45,403 nt of DNA. It comes from Armatimonadota bacterium. GTDB lineage: Bacteria; Armatimonadota; JAAZEB01. The notes below the pieces were generated by a model that did no database searches, was not told the DNA's origin, and worked only from the letters and a program-made list of their open reading frames with translations. Below, piece after piece: positions 18,307 through 30,260 of this stretch; the stretch's first letter is position 1, and every line of letters starts with the position of its first letter. The stretch lies in assembly GCA_012512505.1 (NCBI GenBank), contig JAAZEB010000051.1:1-45403 (forward strand), in the 5' to 3' direction. Position numbers and translations under genes: made by a program.

Positions 18307-18345
18307 TACGCCTGCCGCCTGGCCGCCTGCCGCTGGCCCCACAGA

Positions 18346-18430
18346 ACAGGTAGCCCTAAAAGGACTACCCTGTCTAGGGGACAAGCCGGCTCACCTCGGC
18401 CCGCGCCGGCTCCGAAGCATCCTACAAGGC
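18346..18430 (+). repeat. Dispersed intergenic repeat, copy A
   Basis: The copy starts with an imperfect hairpin (18346-18373, ACAGGTAG ... CTACCCTGT), then AGGGGACAAGCCGGCT, a variable insert, GCCGGCTCCGAAGCATCC and TACAAGGC. The same order of blocks occurs at 30118-30194. In this copy GGGACAAGC (18378-18386) can also pair with GCTTGTCCC (18431-18439), making a larger folded unit. It lies between the hpn operon promoter and the lactonase 3' end, in the 460-nt gap 18146-18605. Confidence 0.65.
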
Positions 18431-18540
18431 GCTTGTCCCTTGGGTCAGGGGCATCGTTGACGGCGTCCCGAACCGGCACCCCACACACGGCGCCGACACG
18501 CGGCTGGCGTGTCGTTCACGGCGCCCGAAACTCGCGCCTG

Positions 18541-18603
18541 ACACCTGCCACCTGACACCTAACACCTGTCACCTATCACCTGTCACCTATCACCTGCCAC
18601 CTA
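18541..18603. repeat. Tandem heptamer tract NCACCTR, nine units
   Basis: Nine uninterrupted 7-nt units with the pattern N-CACCT-R: ACACCTG, CCACCTG, ACACCTA, ACACCTG, TCACCTA, TCACCTG, TCACCTA, TCACCTG, CCACCTA. A and G alternate at the last base through most of the tract. It ends two bases before the lactonase stop codon. Read on the minus strand each unit contains AGGTG. A shorter tract of the same unit follows copy B of the dispersed repeat. Confidence 0.85.
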
Positions 18604-18605
18604 CC

Positions 18606-19676
18606 CTACCAGCCGGCGAACTTCAGGCAGACCGGCATCGGCACCGAGACGACCTGGCCGGTGGGCGTCAGGGCCCCGGTGTCCGGGTCGATGCGGAAGG
18701 TGACGATGTTGTCGGTGTCCTGGTTTGCCACCAGCAGGAAGGTGCCGCTGGGGTCAATCACGAAGCCGCGGGGATTCTTCCCGCCGGTGGGCTGATGGCC
18801 GAGCGGGCGCGGCCGGCCCGGCTCCTCGGCAATGGCGTAGAGGGCGATGCTGTCGTGCCCGCGGTTGGAGCCGTAGAGGAACCGTCCCGAGGGATGGACG
18901 TGGACATCGGCGGGGTAGTTGGTGCCGCTGAAACCTTCGGGGAGGGTAGGAACGGCCTCTAGTGGCGTCAGGGTGCCGGTAGCCCCGTCGTAGGCGAAGG
19001 GGGTCAGGGTCGAATCGAGCTCGTTGATGGCGTAGGCGTAGCGGCCGTTCGGGTGAAAGGCGATGTGGCGCGGACCGGCGCCCGGGTGCGTCTGCGCCCA
19101 CGGTCGCGGCGCCGGATGGAGCGTGCCCGAGGCTGCGTCGAGCGTGTAGACCAGCACTTTGTCCAGCCCGAGGTCCACCGCGAAGACGAAGCGGCCGGCG
19201 CCATCAAAGGTAACGCAGTGGGCGTGCGGCCCTTCCTGCCGGCTGGGGTCGCCACCCTGGCCCTCGTGTTGGACGACGTGACTGGGAGGCGCCAGCCGGC
19301 CGTCGTCCTCGATGGGGAGCACGGTGACGCTGCCGGAAGTGTAGTTGGCCGCCAGCACATAGCGCCCGCTTGGGTCCACGCTGACATAGCAAGGGGCAGC
19401 GCCGCGCGAGGGTTGCTGGTTCAGCAGCGAGAGCGCGCCGGTGTCGGGATCGAGGGTGAAGGCGCTGATCCCTCCCCCGGGCTGGCCGGCAAACTGGGCC
19501 ACCTCGTTAGTGGCGTAGAGGAGGCGCCCCTCGGGATGCAGCGCCAGGTAGGAGGGGTTCTCCACCCACGCCGTGTGCCCGGTAGCGCGCAGCGCCCCTG
19601 TCTCCGGATCAAAGCGGAAGGCGTAGATTCCTTCCGACCCTCTCTGCGTGTACGTGCCAACAAAGACCAGCGGCAT
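18606..19676 (-). CDS. Lactonase-family beta-propeller (6-phosphogluconolactonase-like)
   Basis: A 356-residue seven-bladed beta-propeller of the lactonase family (Pfam PF10282). Blade signatures recur: FVGTYTQRGSEGIYAF, NPSYLALHPEGRLLYATNE, PCYVSVDPSGRYVLAANY, GPRHIAFHPNGRYAYAINE and PRGFVIDPSGTFLLVANQD. Characterised relatives hydrolyse 6-phosphogluconolactone, but many members act on other lactones or are uncharacterised. No signal peptide is seen, so a cytoplasmic role is likely. ATG 19676 is preceded by AGGGAGAAGG at good spacing. It is divergent from the subtilase gene, and its stop abuts the heptamer tract. Without other pentose-phosphate genes nearby the exact substrate is open. Confidence 0.88.
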   Translation of the reverse strand: MPLVFVGTYTQRGSEGIYAFRFDPETGALRATGHTAWVENPSYLALHPEGRLLYATNEVAQFAGQPGGGISAFTLDPDTGALSLLNQQPSRGAAPCYVSVDPSGRYVLAANYTSGSVTVLPIEDDGRLAPPSHVVQHEGQGGDPSRQEGPHAHCVTFDGAGRFVFAVDLGLDKVLVYTLDAASGTLHPAPRPWAQTHPGAGPRHIAFHPNGRYAYAINELDSTLTPFAYDGATGTLTPLEAVPTLPEGFSGTNYPADVHVHPSGRFLYGSNRGHDSIALYAIAEEPGRPRPLGHQPTGGKNPRGFVIDPSGTFLLVANQDTDNIVTFRIDPDTGALTPTGQVVSVPMPVCLKFAGW

Positions 19677-19728
19677 GGCATCCTTCTCCCTTCAGCAGGC
19701 AACCGCACTTGGTGCGCTATTCCGCCGC

Positions 19729-19742
19729 GAGGGCGCGCCCTC
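19729..19742. promoter_or_regulatory. 14-bp perfect palindrome in a divergent promoter region
   Basis: GAGGGCGCGCCCTC is a perfect 14-bp palindrome 53 nt upstream of the lactonase start and 137 nt upstream of the subtilase start. It shares GAGGG/CCCTC arms with the dyad at 19831-19847, which would fit a dimeric repressor or activator. This is a candidate only. Confidence 0.35.
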
Positions 19743-19830
19743 CTGCCGGAAACGGCGCACCGGCGTGAGGAGCGCCCCAGGGATCGGCGCCGCCGGGGGT
19801 GAACTGAGAGAGAAAGCCCCGCGTTCGCCG

Positions 19831-19847
19831 GAGGGTGCCTCACCCTC
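19831..19847. promoter_or_regulatory. Second GAGGG/CCCTC dyad near the subtilase start
   Basis: GAGGGTG-CCT-CACCCTC, a 7-bp dyad with a 3-nt centre, 31 nt upstream of the subtilase ATG. It may be a second operator or a hairpin in the mRNA leader ahead of the ribosome site. Confidence 0.35.
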
Positions 19848-19878
19848 TCCGGACGGCGGGGAGGAAAGGAACGGGCCG

Positions 19879-22476
19879 ATGAGCAAACGCTGGCGGGCAC
19901 TGCTGGGCGTGGTGGCAGTCCTCGCGGCCCTGGGGGGGGCCCGGCCGGGGCCCGCCAGGGCCGCTGACGAGACCTACCTCGTCCGGCTCCGCGAGCGCGC
20001 CCCCCTGGGCACCGCGCAGGGCAACCCGCCGGCGGCAAAGCGCGCGCTCCTTGCCACCGCCCGCCGCGCTCAGGCACCGCTTCTGGCCCGGCTGGAACAC
20101 TGGCGGCGCGCTGGGAAGGTGCGGGCCTACCAGCCCCTCTGGATTATCAACGCGATCAGCGTGCGGGCTGACGACGACGTGCTGCGTGCCCTACGCCAGC
20201 ATCCCGCCGTGGCGGCAGTAACCCCCTCACTCCCGGTGCGGGTGGCTCCCACCCGGCGCACCCGCGTCGCCGCACTGGCCGACACGCATGCCTGGAACCT
20301 CCGCCGCATCGCCGCGCCGTTGGTCTGGACCGAGTACGGCACCCGCGGCGATGGCATCCGCATCGGCGTGCTCGATACCGGCGTGGATCCCACCCATCCC
20401 GCCCTGGCGGGCGGCAAGGTGGTCGCCTGGAACGACTTCGTGGATCCCACCAACACCACGCCGCTGGACCCACACGGGCACGGCACGATGGTGTGCGGCA
20501 CCCTGGTCGGCGGCAACGCCGGCGGAACCGCGATCGGGGTGGCCCCGGACGCCCACCTGATTGTTGCCCGGATGCTGGACGTTGCCGGCAACGGCGGCAC
20601 CGCCGAGACCCTGGCGGCAATGCAGTGGGTGATGGACCCCGATGGAGATCCGAACACCGACGATGGCGCCGAGGTCGTCAACTGCTCCTGGGGTGGGCCG
20701 TCCAACTCCCCGGTGATGAACGCCGGCTTCCGCGACGCTATTGACGCCTGGCGCGCCGCCGGCATCTTCGCCGCGTTCGCCGTAGGCAACAACGGCCCCG
20801 CGCCCCGCAGCACCTACTCCCCCGGCGACTACCCGAACGCCTTCAGCGTCGGCGCCGTGGATCGCGCTGACGTGGTGGCGAGCATGAGCAGCCGCGGGCC
20901 GACCACCTGGAGCGGATGGGGCGATATCGCCAAGCCGGACGTGTCGGCGCCCGGCGAGCAGGTCCTCACCGCCGGCCCGGGTGGCTACGTCCTCGGCACC
21001 GGCAGCTCCCACGCCTGCCCGCACGTCACCGGCACCGCCGCGCTGATCCTCGCCGCTGCCCGCGCCGTCGGCCTGCGCCCCACCGTGGACCAGATTGCCA
21101 CCGCCCTGAAGCGCACCGCCACCGACCTGGGCGCGCCCGGCACCGACAACGACTACGGCGTGGGTCTGGTGAACGCCCGCGAGGCGGTGCGCTTCCTGGT
21201 GGGTGACCGTGACGTGAGCACCCCGGTGACGCTGCGTGGGCTGGGCACTTTCGCGGTGAGCCTCCGCGCTCCGGTCAGCCGACGGGCGCTGGGGCTGGCG
21301 CAAGTGCCAATGAAGCGTTGGGATGCCGCCACGCAGACGTACGCCGAGGCGGCCGACACCCTGACGCCCGGCGAGGGCTACTGGGCGCTGGCGGAGACCG
21401 CCACCGCGGCGGGCGTCTCCGGGCGGGCCCAGGGGGATGCGGCGCGGATCGCCCTGCAGCCAGGCTGGAACCTGATCAGCTCGCCCTTCCTCCAGCCGGT
21501 AGCGTGGGACCTGGATCAGATTCAGGTGCAGCCGGCCGGGCAGGCGCCCCGTCCACTGGGGCAGGCTGGGGCGCTGATCCACAGCTATGCCTGGGGCTGG
21601 CGGCAGGACGAGGCGAACTTCCGGCAGGGAAGCTACGTCTTAATCTACGACAGCGCTGTTCTCCCCGGGGTTGCCCACGAACTGGCCCCGTGGGAAGGCT
21701 ATTGGGTGAAAGCAAAGAGCGCCTGCTCGCTGATTCTCCCCGTACCGGGTCGAAACGCCGTCTCCAGGGCACGCCGGGGCACCGCGCGCGGCTGGAGCCT
21801 CCGCATCCAGGCCCAGGACCGGCACGCTTCGCGGTCGGTGGTGATTGGTGCCCTCAGCAGCCAAGGCCTGGCCGTGCCACCGCCGCCGGAGCCGCCGGCC
21901 AGCCATGGCCGCCTCTCGGTGGGGCTGGAGCGTGCCGGGATGCCGCTGGGGGTAGACGTGCGCGCGGGCGGCGCCGGCCGCTGGGAGTGGGGTCTGCGGG
22001 TGAGCACCGCGGATCCAGCCGACACGGTCACCCTCACCTGGCCCGATCTGCGCGCCGTGCCCGCGGAGATCACCCTTACTCTGGAGGACACGGCGACGGG
22101 GCGACGGCGCTTGCTGCGGAACACGCCCGGCTACACCTTCCAGGCCGCGGCGGCGGTGAGGCGCTTCCGGCTGATAGCCGAGCCCCAGGTGACCGCTCCC
22201 GTGCGGATCACCCACCTGCAGGTGGTGACACTCCGCTCTGGCGCGCGGGCGCTGCGGTTCGTCCTCTCCAGCCCCGCAGCGGTGGACGTGGCGGTGCTGA
22301 CCCCCACGGGCCGCGTGCTGGCGGTGCTGGCCCAGGGGCGGGCGATGACCGCCGGAACGAATCAAGTGATCTGGATGGGAGCGGTGCGTCCAGGCATCTA
22401 CCTGGTGCGCGTCACTGCCACCACCGAGGACGGCCGCGTCTTCCAGGCCCTCGCGCCGGGAGTGGTGGCCCGCTGA
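19879..22476 (+). CDS. Secreted subtilisin-like serine protease (S8) with beta-sandwich C-terminus
   Basis: An 865-residue exported protease. The signal peptide (1-28) is followed by an inhibitor-I9-like propeptide (about 30-120) and the S8 catalytic domain. The triad is Asp166 (VLDTGVD), His201 (HGHGT) and Ser377 (GSSHACPHVTG), with oxyanion Asn304 (AVGNNG). The region 405-640 has repeated beta-rich segments with GEGYWAL, PGWNLISSPF and WEGYWVKA, a domain often found in secreted proteins of these phyla. The C-terminus (NQVIWMGAVRPGIYLVRVTA) resembles FlgD-Ig or sorting-type domains. ATG 19879 follows GAGGAAAGGA; the longer frame to 19648 has no signal peptide. A lipoprotein gene follows after 36 nt. 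The likely role is extracellular protein breakdown. Confidence 0.92.
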   Translation: MSKRWRALLGVVAVLAALGGARPGPARAADETYLVRLRERAPLGTAQGNPPAAKRALLATARRAQAPLLARLEHWRRAGKVRAYQPLWIINAISVRADDDVLRALRQHPAVAAVTPSLPVRVAPTRRTRVAALADTHAWNLRRIAAPLVWTEYGTRGDGIRIGVLDTGVDPTHPALAGGKVVAWNDFVDPTNTTPLDPHGHGTMVCGTLVGGNAGGTAIGVAPDAHLIVARMLDVAGNGGTAETLAAMQWVMDPDGDPNTDDGAEVVNCSWGGPSNSPVMNAGFRDAIDAWRAAGIFAAFAVGNNGPAPRSTYSPGDYPNAFSVGAVDRADVVASMSSRGPTTWSGWGDIAKPDVSAPGEQVLTAGPGGYVLGTGSSHACPHVTGTAALILAAARAVGLRPTVDQIATALKRTATDLGAPGTDNDYGVGLVNAREAVRFLVGDRDVSTPVTLRGLGTFAVSLRAPVSRRALGLAQVPMKRWDAATQTYAEAADTLTPGEGYWALAETATAAGVSGRAQGDAARIALQPGWNLISSPFLQPVAWDLDQIQVQPAGQAPRPLGQAGALIHSYAWGWRQDEANFRQGSYVLIYDSAVLPGVAHELAPWEGYWVKAKSACSLILPVPGRNAVSRARRGTARGWSLRIQAQDRHASRSVVIGALSSQGLAVPPPPEPPASHGRLSVGLERAGMPLGVDVRAGGAGRWEWGLRVSTADPADTVTLTWPDLRAVPAEITLTLEDTATGRRRLLRNTPGYTFQAAAAVRRFRLIAEPQVTAPVRITHLQVVTLRSGARALRFVLSSPAAVDVAVLTPTGRVLAVLAQGRAMTAGTNQVIWMGAVRPGIYLVRVTATTEDGRVFQALAPGVVAR

Positions 22477-22512
22477 AACGTCGTGCGTGCAGCACGCGGA
22501 TAGGAGCAACGG

Positions 22513-22989
22513 ATGAGACTGCGGATCGGATCAGAGCTTGGCGCGGCCGCCGCGTTGGCGCTGGCGCTCTTCCTGGCCGGCTGCGGTGGCGGCGGCGGAG
22601 ACACCCCCGGCCCCGGAGGCGGAGGCAGCGGCGGCGGAGACACCACGGCCCCCACGATCACCAGCGCGTCGGTCAACCCGGCCACGGTGGGCTTCTACGG
22701 GGGCAGCGTCACCATTAGCGCGCGGGTGACTGACAACCAAAGCGTCGCCGCGGTGTGGGCCGACATCACCAAGGCTGGCGGCGCCCCGGTGCGCGTGAAC
22801 CTCGCCCTGACAACCGCGCCCACCTACCAGGTCACCTGGACCGTGCCCTCCAACGCCGCGGGCACCTCCAGCGCGGTCTACACGGTGCGCATCTCCGCGC
22901 GCGACGCCGCCAACAACACCGCCGTGAGCGGCCCGCTTACGGTGACCGCGGAGGCGAACGACGCGCCCCCGCCCCCGCCCAGCTTCTGA
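22513..22989 (+). CDS. Lipoprotein with Gly-rich linker and Ig-like domain
   Basis: A 158-residue lipoprotein. A lipobox LAGC at residues 21-24 follows a hydrophobic signal, so Cys24 should be lipidated. A Gly-rich spacer (to about 43) leads to one Ig-like or cadherin-like beta-sandwich (TITSASVNPATVGFYGGSVT ... YTVRISARDAANNTAV). The tail is Pro-rich. The start has AGGAG six bases upstream. It follows the subtilase by 36 nt and is probably co-expressed; it may bind a surface component or the protease, but no activity can be read. It converges on the 23114 gene. Confidence 0.78.
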   Translation: MRLRIGSELGAAAALALALFLAGCGGGGGDTPGPGGGGSGGGDTTAPTITSASVNPATVGFYGGSVTISARVTDNQSVAAVWADITKAGGAPVRVNLALTTAPTYQVTWTVPSNAAGTSSAVYTVRISARDAANNTAVSGPLTVTAEANDAPPPPPSF

Positions 22990-23068
22990 GCGAACGGCCA
23001 ACGTGGACTAAGGCAGCGGGCGCGGTGCCAGGCGCCGCGTCCACTGCCTGACGCTGCGTGTCGTTGTC

Positions 23069-23105
23069 GGCCGGACCCTAGCCCACCCCCAACTCGCGTC
23101 CGGCC
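23069..23105. terminator. Hairpin between converging genes
   Basis: GGCCGGAC (23069-23076) pairs with GTCCGGCC (23098-23105) across a 21-nt loop. It lies in the 124-nt gap between the lipoprotein and the converging 23114 gene and could end transcription from both sides. There is no T-run. Confidence 0.4.
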
Positions 23106-23113
23106 GGCGGGAA

Positions 23114-23974
23114 CTACGGGGCCGCCACGGGAACGACCTTCTCCAGGGCAGGCGTGACTTCAAACGTCACCCAGTCGCTGTACGTTAGCGGCGGCGGGCC
23201 CATCCTCCGCCGTGCTCGCACGCGGTAGTGGCCCGGGGCGATCGGCATGCCGCTGCTCCACGTTTCGACGCCATCGACCGGTGAGGTGTCCCCTTCCGCC
23301 ACAAAGACCCAGTTACCTCCCACCAACTGCTCCCTCTGACAGTGAGCGGGAGTCGTCCCGGTGGTCACCTTGAGATTCAGAAGCCCCGCCAGGGTACTCC
23401 GCAGGGTGACCGTCGAATGGTTGGGAACCTCAGCCACTACCGGGGCGGGCGCCATATACCCCATCGGGGTAGGTGTGCCACTGATGGTCCACTTCCATCC
23501 TTTGCCCAGGTTCACGATGGCGGTGCCATTGCCGGGGAACGTCCACTGCTCCAGGCCGACCGGCACAGGAGGTGCCGGATCCGTGAGCGCCTCCCCCCGG
23601 ACCGCGCGGCCATTGCCGGGCAGCGGGCCCTCCGCACCCGGGGGCGGTGGGGCAATGTTGCCCCGCAGGTTCACGGTAACCTCGGCCGTGAGGTTCTGCA
23701 GGGCCACTGCCGAGGGCGGCGCGATCGGCTCTACGCGCAGGCCCCACACCTGTCCCGCGGGCAGGCAGGCGGTGACCTGGGCGCGCTTTCTGACCTGATC
23801 GTTGGCCGCCTGGGCAGCAGCAGCCACAGGCACCGACGGGTTGGCCGATCCTTCGCCCGCGCCACGGTGTGCCTGCGCAAAGGCGTTCAAGAGGTCACTC
23901 ACCGCCGCGACCCAGGATTGCTTCCCCCTGTAAGGGAAGTACACGACGGCCTTGCACTCCGGGAACAACCTCAT
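23114..23974 (-). CDS. Unrecognised beta-rich protein
   Basis: A 286-residue protein with no family that I recognise. An Ala-rich helical stretch (about 20-70) is followed by beta-strand-rich sequence with Pro-rich linkers (NIAPPPPGAEGPLPGN). Near the end there is a fibronectin- or Ig-like pattern (SSGMPIAPGHYRVRARRR ... YSDWVTFEVTP). Its ATG overlaps the stop of the upstream gene as ATGA, which argues for coupled translation. It has no signal peptide of its own, yet the composition looks extracellular. The reading frame stays open for at least 18 codons upstream of the ATG, so it could also be the 3' part of one larger secreted protein joined to the 24.9 kb gene by a second frameshift. A role cannot be proposed. 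Confidence 0.6.
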   Translation of the reverse strand: MRLFPECKAVVYFPYRGKQSWVAAVSDLLNAFAQAHRGAGEGSANPSVPVAAAAQAANDQVRKRAQVTACLPAGQVWGLRVEPIAPPSAVALQNLTAEVTVNLRGNIAPPPPGAEGPLPGNGRAVRGEALTDPAPPVPVGLEQWTFPGNGTAIVNLGKGWKWTISGTPTPMGYMAPAPVVAEVPNHSTVTLRSTLAGLLNLKVTTGTTPAHCQREQLVGGNWVFVAEGDTSPVDGVETWSSGMPIAPGHYRVRARRRMGPPPLTYSDWVTFEVTPALEKVVPVAAP

Positions 23975-24925
23975 TGGCCAGTGCGCGGTACCTTTACTGA
24001 AGGGGGCGCCTGGTAGTCCGCGAGGACGCCAGTGCCATCCCGGAACGGGGCCCGCGCTTCGTCGATCTTCGCGTGGACGGCGTGCCGAGCAGCCAGGGGG
24101 AGGATGGCCGCGACGCCGGGCATGTCACGGCAGAGGTGCTTGTTCACCACTGGGTAGACCGGCGTGAACGGCCCAACGGTCGGCGAATCGTTCTCGAAGG
24201 CGCGGGGGCCATAGCAAACGAGATGCACCGTTGGGCCAGTCGTCGCCGGGTGGCCGTCCCACACGGTGGGGTTGCCGTAGGGGAGATCGTCGGGATGCTG
24301 CTTGCACGAACAGGGGGGCACGTACGGACAGGCGTGCTGAAGACCATGGTTGGGGATCCAGGTGAGTGAGGCGATCGCGGCGACCGCGGTATCAGTAGTG
24401 GGGTCGATGGCTGCGGCCTGGACGAGAGTCGTTCCCCCGGCATCCATGACGTTCAGGTTCACTTGCACTACCGCGGTCGCCACCTTCACGGCTCCCTTGA
24501 TCTCGCTCCCCTGCTGGTTGGCCTTGATCGTGCCGATCCGGGCTCCCGTCTCCGCGTTGGTGACGACCACGCTGCCAAGCCGGTTCCGCGTATCCCGCAC
24601 GATGACGTGCAGTCGCATGGGATTGTCCGGGTTGGCCGGCTCGTAGAACGTCCATCCGGCGGGCGGCACCGGGTCGTTGATCTGGTGGGCACCGAAATCG
24701 GCCGCGGTGTCCACCATGGTCTCGCCGGGCTGGTAGGCCGCCAGCGCGTCCTCGATCTCCGCGACCCGCTCCTCTTGCGTGGTATGGTTGAACCAGAGAC
24801 CGCTGTGGGAGACACCCATCGAGAGGGTGTTATCCCACGGAAGGGGCGTCGGGGTTGCCGCGCGCGGCGGCGCTCGGCACCAGGGTAGCTCCCAGGACCA
24901 GGAGGCAAAGCGTTCGGGACAGCAT
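23971..24925 (-). CDS. Unrecognised secreted protein, signal peptide in a different frame from the body
   Basis: The ribosome site GGAAAGGAG and ATG at 24925 start a good Sec signal peptide (MLSRTLCLLVLGATLV...SAAARG), but this frame stops at TAA after 31 codons. The body continues in the +1 frame from about DNTLSMGVSHSGLWF to the stop at 23971, with coding-like base use. The body's own longer frame, reaching back to 25071, would start inside the promoter at 25042-25071 and lacks a signal. So one extra base (or two missing) between about 24890 and 24835, possibly in the CCCC runs there, separates leader and body. An internal ATG at 24819 has a poor ribosome site. The body has a cysteine cluster CPYVPPCSCK but no family that I recognise. 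The stop overlaps the next gene (ATGA). Confidence 0.6.
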
Positions 24926-25041
24926 TGCACTGCTCCTTTCCGGTCTGGTGCTATAGGTACGGAGGGGTTGCTACAGGCAGGACCATGGGGCGCCAACGCC
25001 GGGGGGGGCAAGCAGTTGGTATCCCACGGCTCGCCGAACAT

Positions 25042-25071
25042 ATTGTACACGGATAGCGGACGAACCGTCAA
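25042..25071 (-). promoter_or_regulatory. Sigma70-type promoter of the 24925 gene
   Basis: Minus strand: TTGACG (25071-25066), 18 nt, TACAAT (25047-25042), each 5/6 to consensus. Transcription would start near 25035, about 110 nt before the signal-peptide ATG. It rules out translation starts at or above 25042. Confidence 0.68.
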
Positions 25072-25107
25072 GGACCACCCGCGCGGCCGGATGGCCCCCA
25101 GGAGAGC

Positions 25108-25144
25108 GGGGCAGGCACGCTTGCCACGCGGCCGTGCCTGCCCC
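25108..25144 (-). terminator. 12-bp hairpin after the Gfo/Idh/MocA gene
   Basis: GGGGCAGGCACG (25108-25119) pairs perfectly with CGTGCCTGCCCC (25133-25144) across 13 nt. It begins six bases beyond the stop at 25151. No T-run follows on the minus strand. Confidence 0.6.
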
Positions 25145-25150
25145 TTGAGG

Positions 25151-26125
25151 TTACCAGGAGAAGTAGGTTTCGACTGGCCGGCGCTCCTTGGCCGACAGGT
25201 TGGCCGCCAGGGTAACGTCGAGGGTCTTCAGGGCGTCGAGGTAGGGCGACTTGATGCGCGAGCCGTCGCCGGTGCGCACCGCCTCCACGAAGACGGCATC
25301 AATCGACTCCGCCGGACGCGGCTCCTTATCGAGCGGGGCAGCATCCTCTGGAGTGAGCGTGGGGGCGCCGCCGTCGGTGGTCAGCTTCATTCCTTCGAGG
25401 TAGAACTCGAAGCCGCGGCCGCCGGGGCAGCCGGTGCAACTGGTGACGAACTGCCCAATGGCGCCGTTGGCGAACTCCAACTGGATCGCCTGCAGGTCGG
25501 GGATGGTGATCCCGGGCACGTTTCCATGCACCTTGCGCGCGTAGGTGGCGTAGACGCTGCGCACCTCGCCTGCCCAGTAGCGGATCAGGTCCACCTCGTG
25601 GGTCGCCTGCTCCACCAACTGCCCGCCGGAGAGTTCGAGCTTCTGCCACCAGGGCCCGCCCACCAGGGCGCCCCAGCGGCGCGCGGTGACCATCAGCAGG
25701 TTCTTGTCGGCCAGAAACTCGCGGATCGGGTCGGTGTAAGGGGTGTAGCGGAGCTGGTAGCCAACGCAAGAGAGCACGCCGGCGCGCTCGATCGCTTCCC
25801 ACACCTCCAGGCCCTTCTCCAGGGTGAGCGCCACCGGCTTCTCGATGAAGAGGTGGACGCCGCGCTCAGCGGCCAGGATCTCGGCGTCGTAGTGCGCGAA
25901 GGGGGGCACGCTCACGTAGAGGGCGTCCATCTCCGCTTCGTTGATCAGGTCTCGGTAGTCGGTGTAGGCGCGCGCCCCATACTGCCGGGCGGCCGCCTCG
26001 GCGCGCTCGGCGGATAGGTCGCACACGGCGGTAATGCGCGTGCCTTCCAGCGCCGCCACCGCCTGCATGTGCCCCGAGGCGTTGCCCCCGGCACCCACAA
26101 ACGCTATCTTCACTTCGCTGCTCAT
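25151..26125 (-). CDS. Gfo/Idh/MocA-family NAD(P)-dependent oxidoreductase
   Basis: A 324-residue oxidoreductase. The N-terminal Rossmann fold starts IAFVGAGGNASGH, and the family motif LFIEKPVALT carries the conserved Glu-Lys-Pro catalytic region. The C-terminal alpha/beta domain includes the likely active-site His of EQATHEVDLIRYW. These enzymes oxidise or reduce sugars, inositols and amino-sugars with a bound or free nicotinamide. The start is ATG 26125, with GGAGGGAG six bases upstream; the frame stays open further upstream but shows no homology there. No signal peptide, so it acts in the cytoplasm. It is divergent from the large glycoside-hydrolase-like gene and may process sugars released by that cluster (inference). 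A strong hairpin follows its stop. Confidence 0.93.
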   Translation of the reverse strand: MSSEVKIAFVGAGGNASGHMQAVAALEGTRITAVCDLSAERAEAAARQYGARAYTDYRDLINEAEMDALYVSVPPFAHYDAEILAAERGVHLFIEKPVALTLEKGLEVWEAIERAGVLSCVGYQLRYTPYTDPIREFLADKNLLMVTARRWGALVGGPWWQKLELSGGQLVEQATHEVDLIRYWAGEVRSVYATYARKVHGNVPGITIPDLQAIQLEFANGAIGQFVTSCTGCPGGRGFEFYLEGMKLTTDGGAPTLTPEDAAPLDKEPRPAESIDAVFVEAVRTGDGSRIKSPYLDALKTLDVTLAANLSAKERRPVETYFSW

Positions 26126-26480
26126 CAATCGCTCCCTCCGGCATCGCGGATCGCGGACTGCCGCTCGCCGGGAAAGGGCGCGGTTCCCTCGGCCGCGCAC
26201 TCCCCCATCCGGTCCTCCACGCCCCCGGTCCGCCGGTGCCCATGGCGCTATCGCCCGCCATCTGGTGGCGGGCACTCGGCCCTCAGTTGGCCCATCGCAC
26301 CCCGGATTCCTGCCCATCCAGCGGGCCGTGGCAGGGGAACCCCCGCCCACCGGGGAACAGTGAGGCAGCGAGGCGTGCCCTGGCGCCGCCCGCCAGGAAA
26401 ATCGACCGCCGCCCACCGAACCACGAAGGAAACGGCTCGGGCGAACCGGTGCCCGACTGCACTGCCGAGAGGTATCCGCC
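26126..26480. other. Divergent intergenic region, no gene seen
   Basis: This 355-nt stretch separates the divergent oxidoreductase and glycoside-hydrolase-like genes. Several frames stay open only because the G+C is high. The only clear structure is an 8-bp hairpin at 26253-26273 (GCCCGCCA/TGGCGGGC, 5-nt loop). I see no convincing -35/-10 pair. Confidence 0.5.
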
Positions 26481-29400
26481 ATGCGATTCCGCACGCTCTT
26501 CGTCGCCGCCGCGGTGGCGGCTGTGTTTGCCGATGGAGGTTCCCGCGTGAGTGCCCAGAGTGTTCCCTACCGCGTTGCCCCGCAAGCCTGGGAGGAGGGT
26601 CTGGGCAGCCATCGCGCCCGGGTACGGGTGGAAGCGCCCGCCGAGGCCGTGCGGCTGCACCTGCCCTGGCGCCGGCGTGACCGCGACCCACAGCGCAAGC
26701 GCATTATCGTTCACGCCGCCGATGGGCGCGTGGTGCGCAACGTGGTGCCGGTGCGCGTCGAGCGCGAGTCTGGCGACCTGGTCTTCCAGCCGGAGGCCGG
26801 CCCGGGCGAGTACTACGTCTACTACCTGCCGTATCGCCCCCAAGACAACTGGGGTTGGTACGGCGGTGACTATCTCCCGCCGGAGGAGACCGCCGATGCC
26901 GCCTGGCGGGAGCGCCACGGTCTGGTGGCCGACCGGCTGGCCGAAGAGCGGTGGCGCGACCTCCCCAGCGCCGAGCTGCTGGGAATCGAGGCCCGCACCG
27001 AGTTCAGCCGCAGCGACCCGATGGAGGTGATCGCCACCGCCGCGGAGCTGCGGCAGCTCCTGGAAGCGCACCCGGATCCGTACCTCCTTTTCCCTGAAGA
27101 CCGTCGCTACCCGATCCGCATGCCGGACGAGCTGCCACTGCGCTGGATCGAGCGCGGGCCAGGCGGCACCTTCCAAGGTGAGGCCGAGCGCGACGAGTTC
27201 TACTGCTTCCAGATCGGAGTCTACGCCGCCCGGCAGGCGCTGGATGACCTGGCGGTGGAGTTTAGTGACCTGCAGCCAGCGGGCGAGGGCAAGGCGATCC
27301 CGGCGTCGGCGTTCCGCTGCTTCAATCTGGGCGGCATCGACTGGACCGGCGAGCCGCTGGTGAAGCGCATTTCCGTGGCGCAAGGGAAGGTGCAGGCACT
27401 CTGGTGTGGGGTGGCGATCCCGCGCAACGCCACGCCCGGCACCTACACCGGCCAGGTTACCATCCGCCCGCGCAACGCCGAGGCGCGGCGGGTGCCCCTC
27501 TCGCTGACGGTGCTGCCGCAGGTGGCCGTGGAGCACGGTGACAACGAGCTGTGGCGCCACTCGCGCCTGCGCTGGCTCGATTCGACCATCGCCATTGACG
27601 ACGAACTGGTGCGCCCCTACACCCCGCTGAAGGTGAGCGGGCGCTCGATTGCCTGCCTGGGGCGCGCCCTGCGCTTCGGCGCCACCGGCCTGCCAGAGCG
27701 CATCCGCGCCGGCCGGCAGGAGATCCTCGCCGCCCCCATGACGCTGGCGGTGGAAACGGACGCCGGCCGGGTAGGATGGACTGGCCAGCCGCCCCGGATC
27801 ACCAAGCAGTCGCCGGGCGTGGTGGCCTGGGAATGGAACGCCACCGCGGCCGGGCTGGAGCAGAGCGGCCAGGCGCGGATGGAGTTTGATGGGCACGTCC
27901 TCTTTGAGGTGACGCTCAAGGCGAACGAGACGGTGGCGCTGAAAGACGTGGCGCTGGAGCTGCCGTTCCGCCGGGAGACGGCCACTTACCTGATGGGGAT
28001 TGGGCGCAAGGGAGGGCTGCGCCCGAAGGAGCATGCCTGGAAGTGGGGCGGGCCGGTTTACTACGACAGCTTCTGGATGGGCGACGTGCACGCCGGCTTG
28101 CAGTGCGAGCTGCGCGGCGCCAGCTACTGCGGCCCGATGGTGAACCTCTACTGGAACCTGAAGCAGCTAGAGCCGCCGGCATCGTGGCACAACGAGGGGA
28201 AGGGCGGCTGCACCGTCGCCGACGCCGAGGGGGGCCAGGTGCTGGCGCGCGCCTACAGCGGCGCGCGCACGTTGAAGGCAGGCGAGGAGATCCGCTTCGA
28301 GTTCGCTCTCCTGATCACGCCGGTGAAGCCGCTGGACACGGCGAAGCATTTCCGCACCCGCTACTACCACGACTACAAGCCGCTCGATGAGATCGAGCCG
28401 ACCGGCGCCAACGTGGTGAACATCCACCATGCCAACGAGCTGAACCCCTACATCAACTACCCGTTCCTCACCCTGGACAAGCTCTCCGCCTACATTCGCG
28501 ACGCGCACCGCCGCGACATGAAGGTGAAGATCTACTACACCATGCGCGAGATCACCAACCACGTCGCGGAGATGTGGGCGCTGCGCAGCCTCGGGCACGA
28601 GGTGCTGGCGCCGGGCAGCGGCGGCGGTTACCCCTGGCTGCGCGAGCACCTCGGCGAGGATTACAGCCCCGCCTGGTTCCAGCCACAGCCGGACGGCGAC
28701 GCCTGCGCGGCGATCGTCAACAGCGGCGCCTCGCGCTGGTACAACTACTACCTGGAGGGGCTCGCCTGGCTGGTCAAGCACGCCGAGATCGACGGCCTCT
28801 ACAACGACGATGTCTCCTACGACCGGCGGATCATGAAGCGAGTGCGCAAGATCCTCGACCGCGGCCGCCCCGGGTGCCTGATCGATCTCCACTCCAACAC
28901 CGCCTTCTCGCACGGCCCCGCCAATCAGTACATGGAGTTCTTCCCCTTCATCGACAGCCTCTGGTTTGGCGAGAGCTTCAACTACGACGACCCGCCCGAC
29001 TACTGGCTGACCGAGATCTCCGGCATCCCCTACGGGCTGATGGGCGAGATGCTCCAGAACGGCGGCAACCCCTGGCGCGGAATGCTCTACGGCATGGTCT
29101 CGCGCATGCCCTGGTCCGGCGACCCCAGCGGCATGTGGAAGGTATGGGATGCGTTCGGCATCGACCGGGCGAAGATGATCGGCTATTGGGAGCCAGACTG
29201 CCCGGTGCGCACCAACCATGAGGAGGTGCTCGCCACCGCCTACGTCCGCAAGGGCAAAACGCTCCTCTCCGTGGCAAGCTGGGCGCGTACCCCGGTCAAG
29301 TGCCGCCTGCAGATCGACTGGAAAGCGCTTGGCCTGGACCCGAAGCGCGCGCACCTCTACGCCCCGGCGATCAAGGACTTTCAGGACGCGGCGCTCTTCA

Positions 29401-30098
29401 AGCCGGACGACGAGATCCCGGTGATGCCCCGGCGCGGCTGGGTGCTGATCGTGGACCACGAGCCGCACGACGCCCCGCCCTACGTGGCGCCCAGAGACCA
29501 GGCCTACGACTCGCGGCGCCTGCTGCTGGAGCGGCACTTCACCGGCGACCGCCTCGACCCGGAGTGGCGCCCATTCCTCTCGCCGACCCCAGGCACCCGC
29601 CTGGAGGTGAAGGATGACCGCCTGCTGATCCATGGCGAGGGGCACGTCTACGCCTACGCGGAGCTGCCCCTGCCGGCCGGCGTCACCCTGGCCCAGTGCC
29701 GTCTGCACACCGGCAATGACCAGGGGATGACCTGGGGCCCGGGGATCGCCCTGATGTGGCCAGACCACTTCCTGCGCATCAACGTCCGGCCTACCGAGGG
29801 TCGGGTGGGCGTGGATAACGGCAAGGAGCAGTGGCTGCTGCCCTGCTTCGTGGGGCCGGACATGGAGTGCCGCCTGCGCCTGCGTCTGGAGGCGGATCAG
29901 GTGCTGGCGGAGGTCTCCACCGACGGCGAGTGGTGGGAGACGGTCCACACTCTGCCGCGCAGCGCCTTCCCAGGCGACCCGGTGGCGCTGCGCGTAGGGA
30001 AGATGGCCAGCACCGGCAAGCCGATGGATGCCGGCCAGGCCAGCGCGGTGGGCACCTGCGCCATCCTGGGCGTGCGCGCCTACGCCAACAAACCGTAG
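26481..30098 (+). CDS. Large secreted glycoside-hydrolase-like protein (DUF6067/GH123-like)
   Basis: A 1205-residue exported protein starting with a signal peptide (1-25). A beta-rich N-terminal half (about 30-620) carries a GH123-type N-terminal pattern: YYVYYLPYRP, ASAFRCFNLGG and GTYTGQVTIRPRNAEA. A TIM-barrel-like region (about 635-875) follows, with NVVNIHHANELNPY, MKVKIYYTMREITNH and an acidic motif DGLYNDDVSYD (Asp771 onwards) where catalytic acids would be expected. The last ~190 residues form a concanavalin-like sandwich (HVYAYAELPLPAGVTLAQC). I infer glycan cleavage; the substrate is unknown. ATG 26481 has GAGAGG nine bases upstream. It heads the plus-strand cluster and is followed by repeat copy B. 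Confidence 0.75.
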   Translation: MRFRTLFVAAAVAAVFADGGSRVSAQSVPYRVAPQAWEEGLGSHRARVRVEAPAEAVRLHLPWRRRDRDPQRKRIIVHAADGRVVRNVVPVRVERESGDLVFQPEAGPGEYYVYYLPYRPQDNWGWYGGDYLPPEETADAAWRERHGLVADRLAEERWRDLPSAELLGIEARTEFSRSDPMEVIATAAELRQLLEAHPDPYLLFPEDRRYPIRMPDELPLRWIERGPGGTFQGEAERDEFYCFQIGVYAARQALDDLAVEFSDLQPAGEGKAIPASAFRCFNLGGIDWTGEPLVKRISVAQGKVQALWCGVAIPRNATPGTYTGQVTIRPRNAEARRVPLSLTVLPQVAVEHGDNELWRHSRLRWLDSTIAIDDELVRPYTPLKVSGRSIACLGRALRFGATGLPERIRAGRQEILAAPMTLAVETDAGRVGWTGQPPRITKQSPGVVAWEWNATAAGLEQSGQARMEFDGHVLFEVTLKANETVALKDVALELPFRRETATYLMGIGRKGGLRPKEHAWKWGGPVYYDSFWMGDVHAGLQCELRGASYCGPMVNLYWNLKQLEPPASWHNEGKGGCTVADAEGGQVLARAYSGARTLKAGEEIRFEFALLITPVKPLDTAKHFRTRYYHDYKPLDEIEPTGANVVNIHHANELNPYINYPFLTLDKLSAYIRDAHRRDMKVKIYYTMREITNHVAEMWALRSLGHEVLAPGSGGGYPWLREHLGEDYSPAWFQPQPDGDACAAIVNSGASRWYNYYLEGLAWLVKHAEIDGLYNDDVSYDRRIMKRVRKILDRGRPGCLIDLHSNTAFSHGPANQYMEFFPFIDSLWFGESFNYDDPPDYWLTEISGIPYGLMGEMLQNGGNPWRGMLYGMVSRMPWSGDPSGMWKVWDAFGIDRAKMIGYWEPDCPVRTNHEEVLATAYVRKGKTLLSVASWARTPVKCRLQIDWKALGLDPKRAHLYAPAIKDFQDAALFKPDDEIPVMPRRGWVLIVDHEPHDAPPYVAPRDQAYDSRRLLLERHFTGDRLDPEWRPFLSPTPGTRLEVKDDRLLIHGEGHVYAYAELPLPAGVTLAQCRLHTGNDQGMTWGPGIALMWPDHFLRINVRPTEGRVGVDNGKEQWLLPCFVGPDMECRLRLRLEADQVLAEVSTDGEWWETVHTLPRSAFPGDPVALRVGKMASTGKPMDAGQASAVGTCAILGVRAYANKP

Positions 30099-30117
30099 CG
30101 CCCCCACCGGCCGCATA

Positions 30118-30149
30118 GGGCAGGGTAGTCGTCAACGACTACCCTGCCC
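30118..30149 (+). terminator. 14-bp perfect hairpin (5' end of repeat copy B)
   Basis: GGGCAGGGTAGTCG (30118-30131) pairs perfectly with 30136-30149 around a TCAA loop. It lies 20 nt after the stop of the large GH-like gene and probably ends or trims that transcript. It is also the left block of the dispersed repeat. Confidence 0.6.
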
Positions 30150-30194
30150 AAGGGACAAGCCGACTAAAGCCGGCTCCACAGCGTCCTGCAAGGC
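30118..30194 (+). repeat. Dispersed intergenic repeat, copy B
   Basis: The block order matches copy A at 18346-18430: a GGGTAGT/ACTACCC hairpin, AAGGGACAAGCCGACT, GCCGGCTCC, CAGCGTCCTGCAAGGC. The insert between the GACT and GCCGGC blocks is only a few bases here, against about 13 in copy A. It has the same orientation as copy A and is likewise followed by NCACCTR heptamers. Confidence 0.65.
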
Positions 30195-30232
30195 CTCGTC
30201 GGGCACCCGGCACGTGGCTTCGGAGCACCCTG

Positions 30233-30260
30233 GCACCTGGCACCTGACACCTGACACCTG
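30233..30260. repeat. Tandem heptamer tract NCACCTG, four units
   Basis: GCACCTG, GCACCTG, ACACCTG, ACACCTG in tandem, preceded by an imperfect GCACCCTG. It is the same unit as the nine-copy tract at 18541-18603 and lies 36 nt before the creatininase-family start. Confidence 0.8.

Follow-up and report, generated by a model that had tools for sequence, protein, structure and literature searches.

A dispersed inverted-dimer repeat of an Armatimonadota bacterium and its probable ties to Y1 transposases

The window that we analysed, i.e. the whole stretch of 45,403 nucleotides of the Armatimonadota bacterium contig JAAZEB010000051.1, harbours two copies (A and B) of an intergenic repeat, which a preliminary description of this DNA had regarded as a composite element similar to MITEs (miniature inverted-repeat transposable elements) or REPINs (REP doublets forming hairpins; REP, repetitive extragenic palindromic sequence). 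We found that A and B belong to a family of about 49 copies, 48 of them outside predicted genes, which has an inverted-dimer architecture, no target-site duplication and, in relatives, links to genes of Y1 transposases; these features support a dispersed repeat of the REPIN/MITE type that is, or once was, actively copied, but not a REPIN by definition. From these features and the lines of evidence given below, we propose that the element is likely to be a non-autonomous mobile repeat of the world of Y1 (HUH, single-strand) transposases, its mobility being what we infer. The copies look like remnants of jumping DNA left without their enzyme, because the repeats of relatives match the ends of Y1 genes while this genome has no detectable Y1 gene.

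Architecture and genomic setting of the repeat family

The genome of this bacterium is available as one draft assembly of 5.66 Mb (396 contigs, 97% complete). Using a covariance model (R1) built from 23 copies, which share a mean pairwise identity of 0.76, we detected 49 loci at E-values of about 1e-4 or lower (a manual count, with the matches of both strands merged), 30 of which are full-length and score above 100 bits. BLAST, the check suggested by the preliminary description, also returned dozens of further places in the genome with copy B as the query. A scan of genome contigs with a 23-nt pattern pointed to three contigs from unrelated organisms, which we judged to be chance matches.

The comparison of oriented copies showed that the unit, of about 120-190 bp, is an inverted dimer of two arms, with terminal inverted repeats of about 40 nt. 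Within each arm, a spacer ending in GGGACAAGC separates the inner hairpin from the outer one, the latter having a conserved C·A mismatch. The outer hairpin comprises about 6 bp, the C-A mismatch, 2 bp and usually a TAAA loop, and then CTG. Read in the orientation of the arm, each half has the consensus GGGNNGCCGTAAACGACNNCCCTG, followed by about 5-6 nt, GGGACAAGC and the inner hairpin. The left and right arms differ chiefly by two stem pairs (TA/TG versus GC) and by the inner hairpin, and in some copies additional sequence interrupts the unit at one internal site.

The hairpins are supported by compensatory stem changes in 30 arms, at pairs 4/19 (GC in 13 arms, UA in 13) and 9/14 (GC in 23, CG in 5) and likewise at the inner pairs 40/52 and 42/50, although a part of these changes merely separates left arms from right arms and does not amount to many independent events. 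The covariation score of the arm is 0.284 versus 0.101 in shuffled alignments (reached by none of 500), and the seventh pair of the outer stem is mismatched, mostly as C-A, in 29 of the 30 arms. Furthermore, the spacer motif GGGACAAGC can pair with GCTTGTCCC of the opposite arm in 97.6% of the cells, and where only one side of this long-range stem has changed, the outcome on the top strand is mostly G-U. A global fold computed with RNAalifold, in which one outer arm pairs with the other, was rejected; it displays good pairing with almost no covariation, whereas the local hairpins do covary.

Hairpin covariation, the stable RNA folds predicted for the element and the G-U bias of its top strand are the features of a structured RNA, or of an element acting on transcription or mRNA stability, that would be conserved for its function and would not move. 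We regard this explanation as very unlikely, in view of the following observations. Neither copy of the window matches Rfam, the neighbouring genes are unrelated, and their orientations are diverse (30 tandem, 9 convergent and 7 divergent), with no convergent bias. In addition, the same design is found in inverted pairs around Y1 genes (see below). The proposal that the hairpin of copy B occupies the place of a terminator is likewise not supported: the hairpin is followed by AAGGGACAAG, without a T-run, so that by its sequence it is not an intrinsic terminator, and only 9 of the 46 gene pairs flanking family members are convergent.

With genes predicted by a custom codon-usage caller trained on seven genes of the window, a single one of the 49 copies falls inside a gene. 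The right flank, past the outer hairpin, tends toward CGNACCGGCGCCC, and target-site duplications were not found at the copies (mean shared word of 1.9 versus 2.1 in the null). This latter result has already weakened the view that the family is a MITE of a DDE-type insertion sequence, in which long, imperfect terminal inverted repeats would enclose a short core. Though the length of the terminal inverted repeats, the small size and the copy number would suit such a MITE, each terminal repeat keeps its own hairpins and conserved mismatch, and Y1 is the sole gene linked to such arms; we find this view highly improbable.

Y1 transposase genes in relatives and in this genome

The link between the element and Y1 transposases rests on the following lines of evidence. 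First, other families of the phylum also have dimers built in this way; as judged by eye, those of the genomes G005, G072, G087, G095 and G236 retain the stem, the C-A mismatch, one or two pairs, the TAAA loop and the CTG. Second, an arm model (R2) built solely from the copies of this genome, and run over 59 Y1 loci (214 kb), yielded only two matches at E<1, which are the upstream and downstream ends, in inverted orientation, of one and the same Y1 gene (L120 of G027, a genome of another family). Third, dispersed dimers resemble a Y1 flank of their own genome in G208 (92% identity over 52 nt covering the whole arm, E 2e-14), G095 (83% over 46 nt, E 0.02) and G027 (88% over 25 nt of the outer hairpin, E 0.01). 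Fourth, inverted repeats flanking the gene upstream and downstream exceed the 99th percentile of the null in 31 of the 36 Y1 genes classed by motif, and in 34 of the 39 genes of the Y---Q--HH clade of the tree. Many of these flanking arms likewise have an outer and an inner hairpin separated by a spacer (e.g. those of L118, L115, L160, L112 and L117). Fifth, such a Y1 gene is present in 11 of the 12 arm-positive genomes (this one excluded) versus 79 of the 278 others (p=1.5e-5; shared ancestry and genome size uncontrolled). Together, these data from relatives tie the architecture to Y1 enzymes, without showing movement.

We also noticed a Y1 gene of the same subclade (L226, G062:C102) lying amid several double-hairpin arms, one of which, CTGCAACGGCAAGGACAAGCC, is much like CTGTCCAAGGGACAAGCC of this genome. 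An arm match in G011 (L085), a genome with no match to a subclass-1.2-like Y1 protein, was set aside.

As to the class of the linked enzyme, the proteins of relatives bear the Y---Q--HH signature, which characterizes the IS200-related subclass 1.2 of TnpA_Y1 (PMC6006769). The corresponding clade has a support of 99/92, and 38 of its 39 members match the motif used for labelling. The four proteins that were tested all exceed the cutoff of the IS200 profile NF033573; with NF047646 (REP-associated tyrosine transposase, RAYT), two of them score 35 bits, for a cutoff of 80, and the other two have no match. One protein compared with solved structures matched transposases of the IS200/IS605 type. By their signature, these proteins resemble subclass 1.2.

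In this genome, a search with the Y1_Tnp profile (PF01797) gave no match, and a profile made from eight Y1 proteins of relatives detected neither a match nor a remnant at E<=10, so that the linked RAYT or transposase gene predicted by the preliminary description is not detectable here. The same PF01797 search was positive for Y1 genes in 41 of the 61 relatives' genomes. The missing enzyme could reflect an assembly gap, and one may then imagine a true REPIN family, or BIME (bacterial interspersed mosaic element), mobilised by a RAYT (Y---NP TnpA_REP) hidden in such a gap. The family does consist of intergenic multicopy inverted palindromes with a mismatched hairpin reminiscent of the REPs of E. 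coli, and NP-type Y1 genes are also present in relatives. There is, however, no GT[AG]G foot and no Y1 match in the genome, and the linked Y1 proteins are of the Y---Q--HH type, those tested passing the IS200 cutoff and failing or missing the RAYT profile. Hence, a hidden RAYT seems to us quite improbable.

Several points weigh against the Y1-linked origin that we prefer. The G095 and G027 matches are weak when taken alone, only that of G208 being strong by itself, and the dispersed dimers of G005, G072, G076 and G087 do not match the Y1 flanks examined there. The arm sequences diverge strongly from genome to genome; some of the arm matches in other genomes have only marginal E-values (1e-3 to 1e-2), and those in G022 and probably G226 look like chance. 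No Y1 gene is detectable in this genome, which makes cognate mobilisation in it putative. Finally, the relatives in which empty sites might be sought include two genomes of the same family, both of other genera, and none of the same genus.

By this preferred origin, the arms would fold once single strands are exposed by the replication fork or by transcription. Their mismatched outer hairpin would be recognised in trans by a Y1 transposase, which would then cut and join the single-stranded DNA, and the dimer would thereby be copied or moved without target duplication. The family would now be decaying, as suggested by its mean pairwise identity and its many truncated copies such as B, because this genome would have lost its own enzyme or never had it. 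As for the heptamers found 3' of the element, they would be a tandem repeat distinct from it, by which the insertion side is marked or attracted.

Heptamer arrays and the two copies of the window

The genome contains 300 overlapping three-unit matches of the CACCTRN heptamer, versus 0 for the reversed pattern. Heptamers adjoin 23 of the 49 copies of the element, always 3' of it and in a single orientation, with 0 in each of the three other placements. This strict side and orientation would fit a single composite mobile unit, as initially proposed, with the heptamers as its variable tail. This alternative, which is unlikely, was already weakened by the occurrence of CACCTRN arrays alone, away from the element, and by the dimers of other genomes, which have no heptamers. 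Moreover, many arrays are preceded, on the same side and in the same orientation, by a second, unrelated palindromic family, GTAGGGGCGAAGCAACCGGC...GCCGGTTGTTTCGCCCCTAC. Heptamers lie 3' of 20 of its 30 copies (and also 5' of 3 of those), a count somewhat favoured by the query, which included three heptamers. Because the arrays also follow this unrelated family on the same side, the heptamers are a separate tandem repeat that is associated with the element, not a part of it. As a correction to the preliminary description, the heptamers near the two copies in the window start about 65 nt (A) and about 40 nt (B) past the conserved blocks, and heptamers are also found without the element.

The second family has about 30 copies, many of them 82-91% identical to the query (e.g. 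L273, at G000:C80:1640-1743, L274 and L276), and its ends start with GTAG, like those of classical REPs. A variant palindrome, GTAGGGGCGAAGCATTGGCGGG...CGCCAATGCTTCGCCCCTAC, also stands 5' of heptamer arrays (L019, L021 and L023; G000:C360 and C267), and at L269 (G000:C126) about 130 nt separate two opposed arrays, an interval in which neither of the palindromic families was recognised. The two palindromic families are adjacent and in the same orientation at G000:C158:8824-9125 and G000:C322:442-691, suggesting repeated insertion at the same side. One reading of the heptamers is a strand-specific landing side, as in IS200/IS605-like insertion; another is a shared tail.

It is possible, and we say so tentatively, that a REPIN lifestyle had a second origin, with two-hairpin arms, within the Y---Q--HH clade of the IS200 side, that the two palindromic families of this genome use CACCTRN as a strand-specific landing side, and that the double-hairpin family outlived its enzyme. 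If the link with Y1 enzymes is true, Y---Q--HH proteins gain a partner repeat of precise, testable design, REPIN-like replication reaches beyond the RAYTs, and enzyme-less genomes such as this one lend themselves to studying the decay of repeat populations. The one-sided association with heptamers would offer a direct handle on target choice.

Regarding the window itself (Table 1), the conserved blocks of the preliminary description are present at the positions and in the order that it gave. The two copies resemble each other far beyond chance: their local alignment scores 33.5, whereas 500 dinucleotide shuffles averaged 9.7 and reached at most 16, and random segments of the window reached at most 16.5. 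The alignment stops ahead of the right outer hairpin, most of the right arm of copy B being lost. The GGGTAGT/ACTACCC hairpin ascribed to both copies does not occur in that exact form in copy A, which reads AGGTAGCCCTAAAAGGACTACCC, and the extent given to that copy (18346-18430) was too short, its mirror-image right arm (18418-18469) having been overlooked. Both copies lie between genes, as stated, namely alcohol dehydrogenase (ADH) and lactonase genes for A, both on the minus strand, and GH123 and creatininase genes for B, both on the plus strand. At the contig edge, positions 28-136 carry two direct repeats of the CRISPR-DR9 type (Rfam RF01322), the probable terminus of a CRISPR array that the assembly interrupted.

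Table 1. Features of the two copies of the repeat and of the adjoining heptamers (window positions).
Feature	Positions	Strand	Basis
Copy A, full-length inverted-dimer element	18343..18474	+	R1 covariance model, 108.5 bits, E 1.6e-23
Copy A, left arm outer hairpin AGGTAGCCCTAAAAGGACTACCC	18348..18370	+	Sequence; outer-hairpin covariation across the family
Copy A, left arm spacer motif GGGGACAAGC, whose possible partner is GCTTGTCCC at 18431-18439	18377..18386	+	Helix paired in 97.6% of cells
Copy A, left inner hairpin (GCCGG...CCGGC)	18386..18413	+	Sequence
Copy A, right inner hairpin GCATCCTACAAGGCGC plus GCTTGTCCC	18418..18439	+	Sequence
Copy A, right arm outer hairpin GGGGCATCGTTGACGGCGTCCC (overlooked previously)	18448..18469	+	Sequence
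Tandem CACCTRN heptamers 3' of copy A (a repeat associated with the element but outside it)	18535..18603	+	
Copy B, with an intact left arm and a truncated or decayed right arm	30118..30237	+	R1, 50.4 bits, E 3.5e-9
Copy B, outer hairpin GGGCAGGGTAGTCGTCAACGACTACCCTGCCC, no T-run after it	30118..30149	+	z -4.67 as DNA over 30112-30200
Copy B, spacer AAGGGACAAGC and inner hairpin AAGCCGACTAAAGCCGGCT	30150..30175	+	Sequence
Copy B, remnant of right inner hairpin GCGTCCTGCAAGGC	30182..30195	+	Sequence; alignment to copy A
Tandem CACCTRN heptamers 3' of copy B	30234..30260	+	

Comparison with known systems

REPINs and BIMEs are REP doublets associated with a RAYT (PMC3116915, PMC8266576). Similarly to them, the element is a dispersed, intergenic, multicopy inverted pair of palindromes, non-autonomous and belonging to the Y1/HUH enzyme world, and the mismatch within its hairpin recalls the REPs of E. 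coli. It differs from them by its two hairpins per arm, instead of one in REPINs, and by the linked enzyme, which is of the Y---Q--HH type (IS200 side) rather than a Y---NP RAYT, and is missing from the host genome. The 5' foot of its hairpins has no GT[AG]G, the arm consensus GGGNNGCCGTAAACGACNNCCCTG having a CTG/CAG foot, and a cognate Y---NP RAYT was not found in the genome with PF01797 or with the custom profile at E<=10. The element works like a REPIN yet, for these two reasons, is not one by definition.

In TIRtrons, with their TIRYT enzymes, the Y1 gene is bordered by inverted repeats, in part double-palindromic, of which dispersed dimers exist as well (PMC3733652), an arrangement seen here in relatives only. 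The spacer GGGGACAA / GGGGAGAA comes close to the TIRtron consensus GGGGWSAS, with 7 of 8 positions. Most TIRYTs belong to subclass 2.1, with a Y---NP signature and a C-terminal helix-turn-helix (PMC6006769); the proteins of relatives are Y---Q--HH instead of Y---NP, no search for a C-terminal helix-turn-helix having been made.

The heptamers call to mind the heptanucleotide STRRs (short tandemly repeated repetitive sequences) of cyanobacteria, which are intergenic tandem 7-bp repeats too; they differ by their sequence and by being nearly always 3' when adjoining a palindromic element. IS200/IS605 elements end in subterminal hairpins, neither of which is an inverted copy of the other, whereas the two arms of the element are inverted copies, which sets it apart from non-autonomous IS200/IS605 derivatives. 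Such non-autonomous relatives reportedly include the PATEs (palindrome-associated transposable elements), e.g. of Haloquadratum, small palindromic derivatives of Y1 insertion sequences.

The linked proteins are similar to subclass 1.2 in the Y---Q--HH motif, the short protein and the kinship with IS200 transposases. Members of that subclass were described as generally having no typical terminal structures and as coming mostly from Cyanobacteria and Bacteroidetes (PMC6006769), whereas 34 of the 39 genes studied here have inverted flanks, and some of them have dispersed partner repeats.

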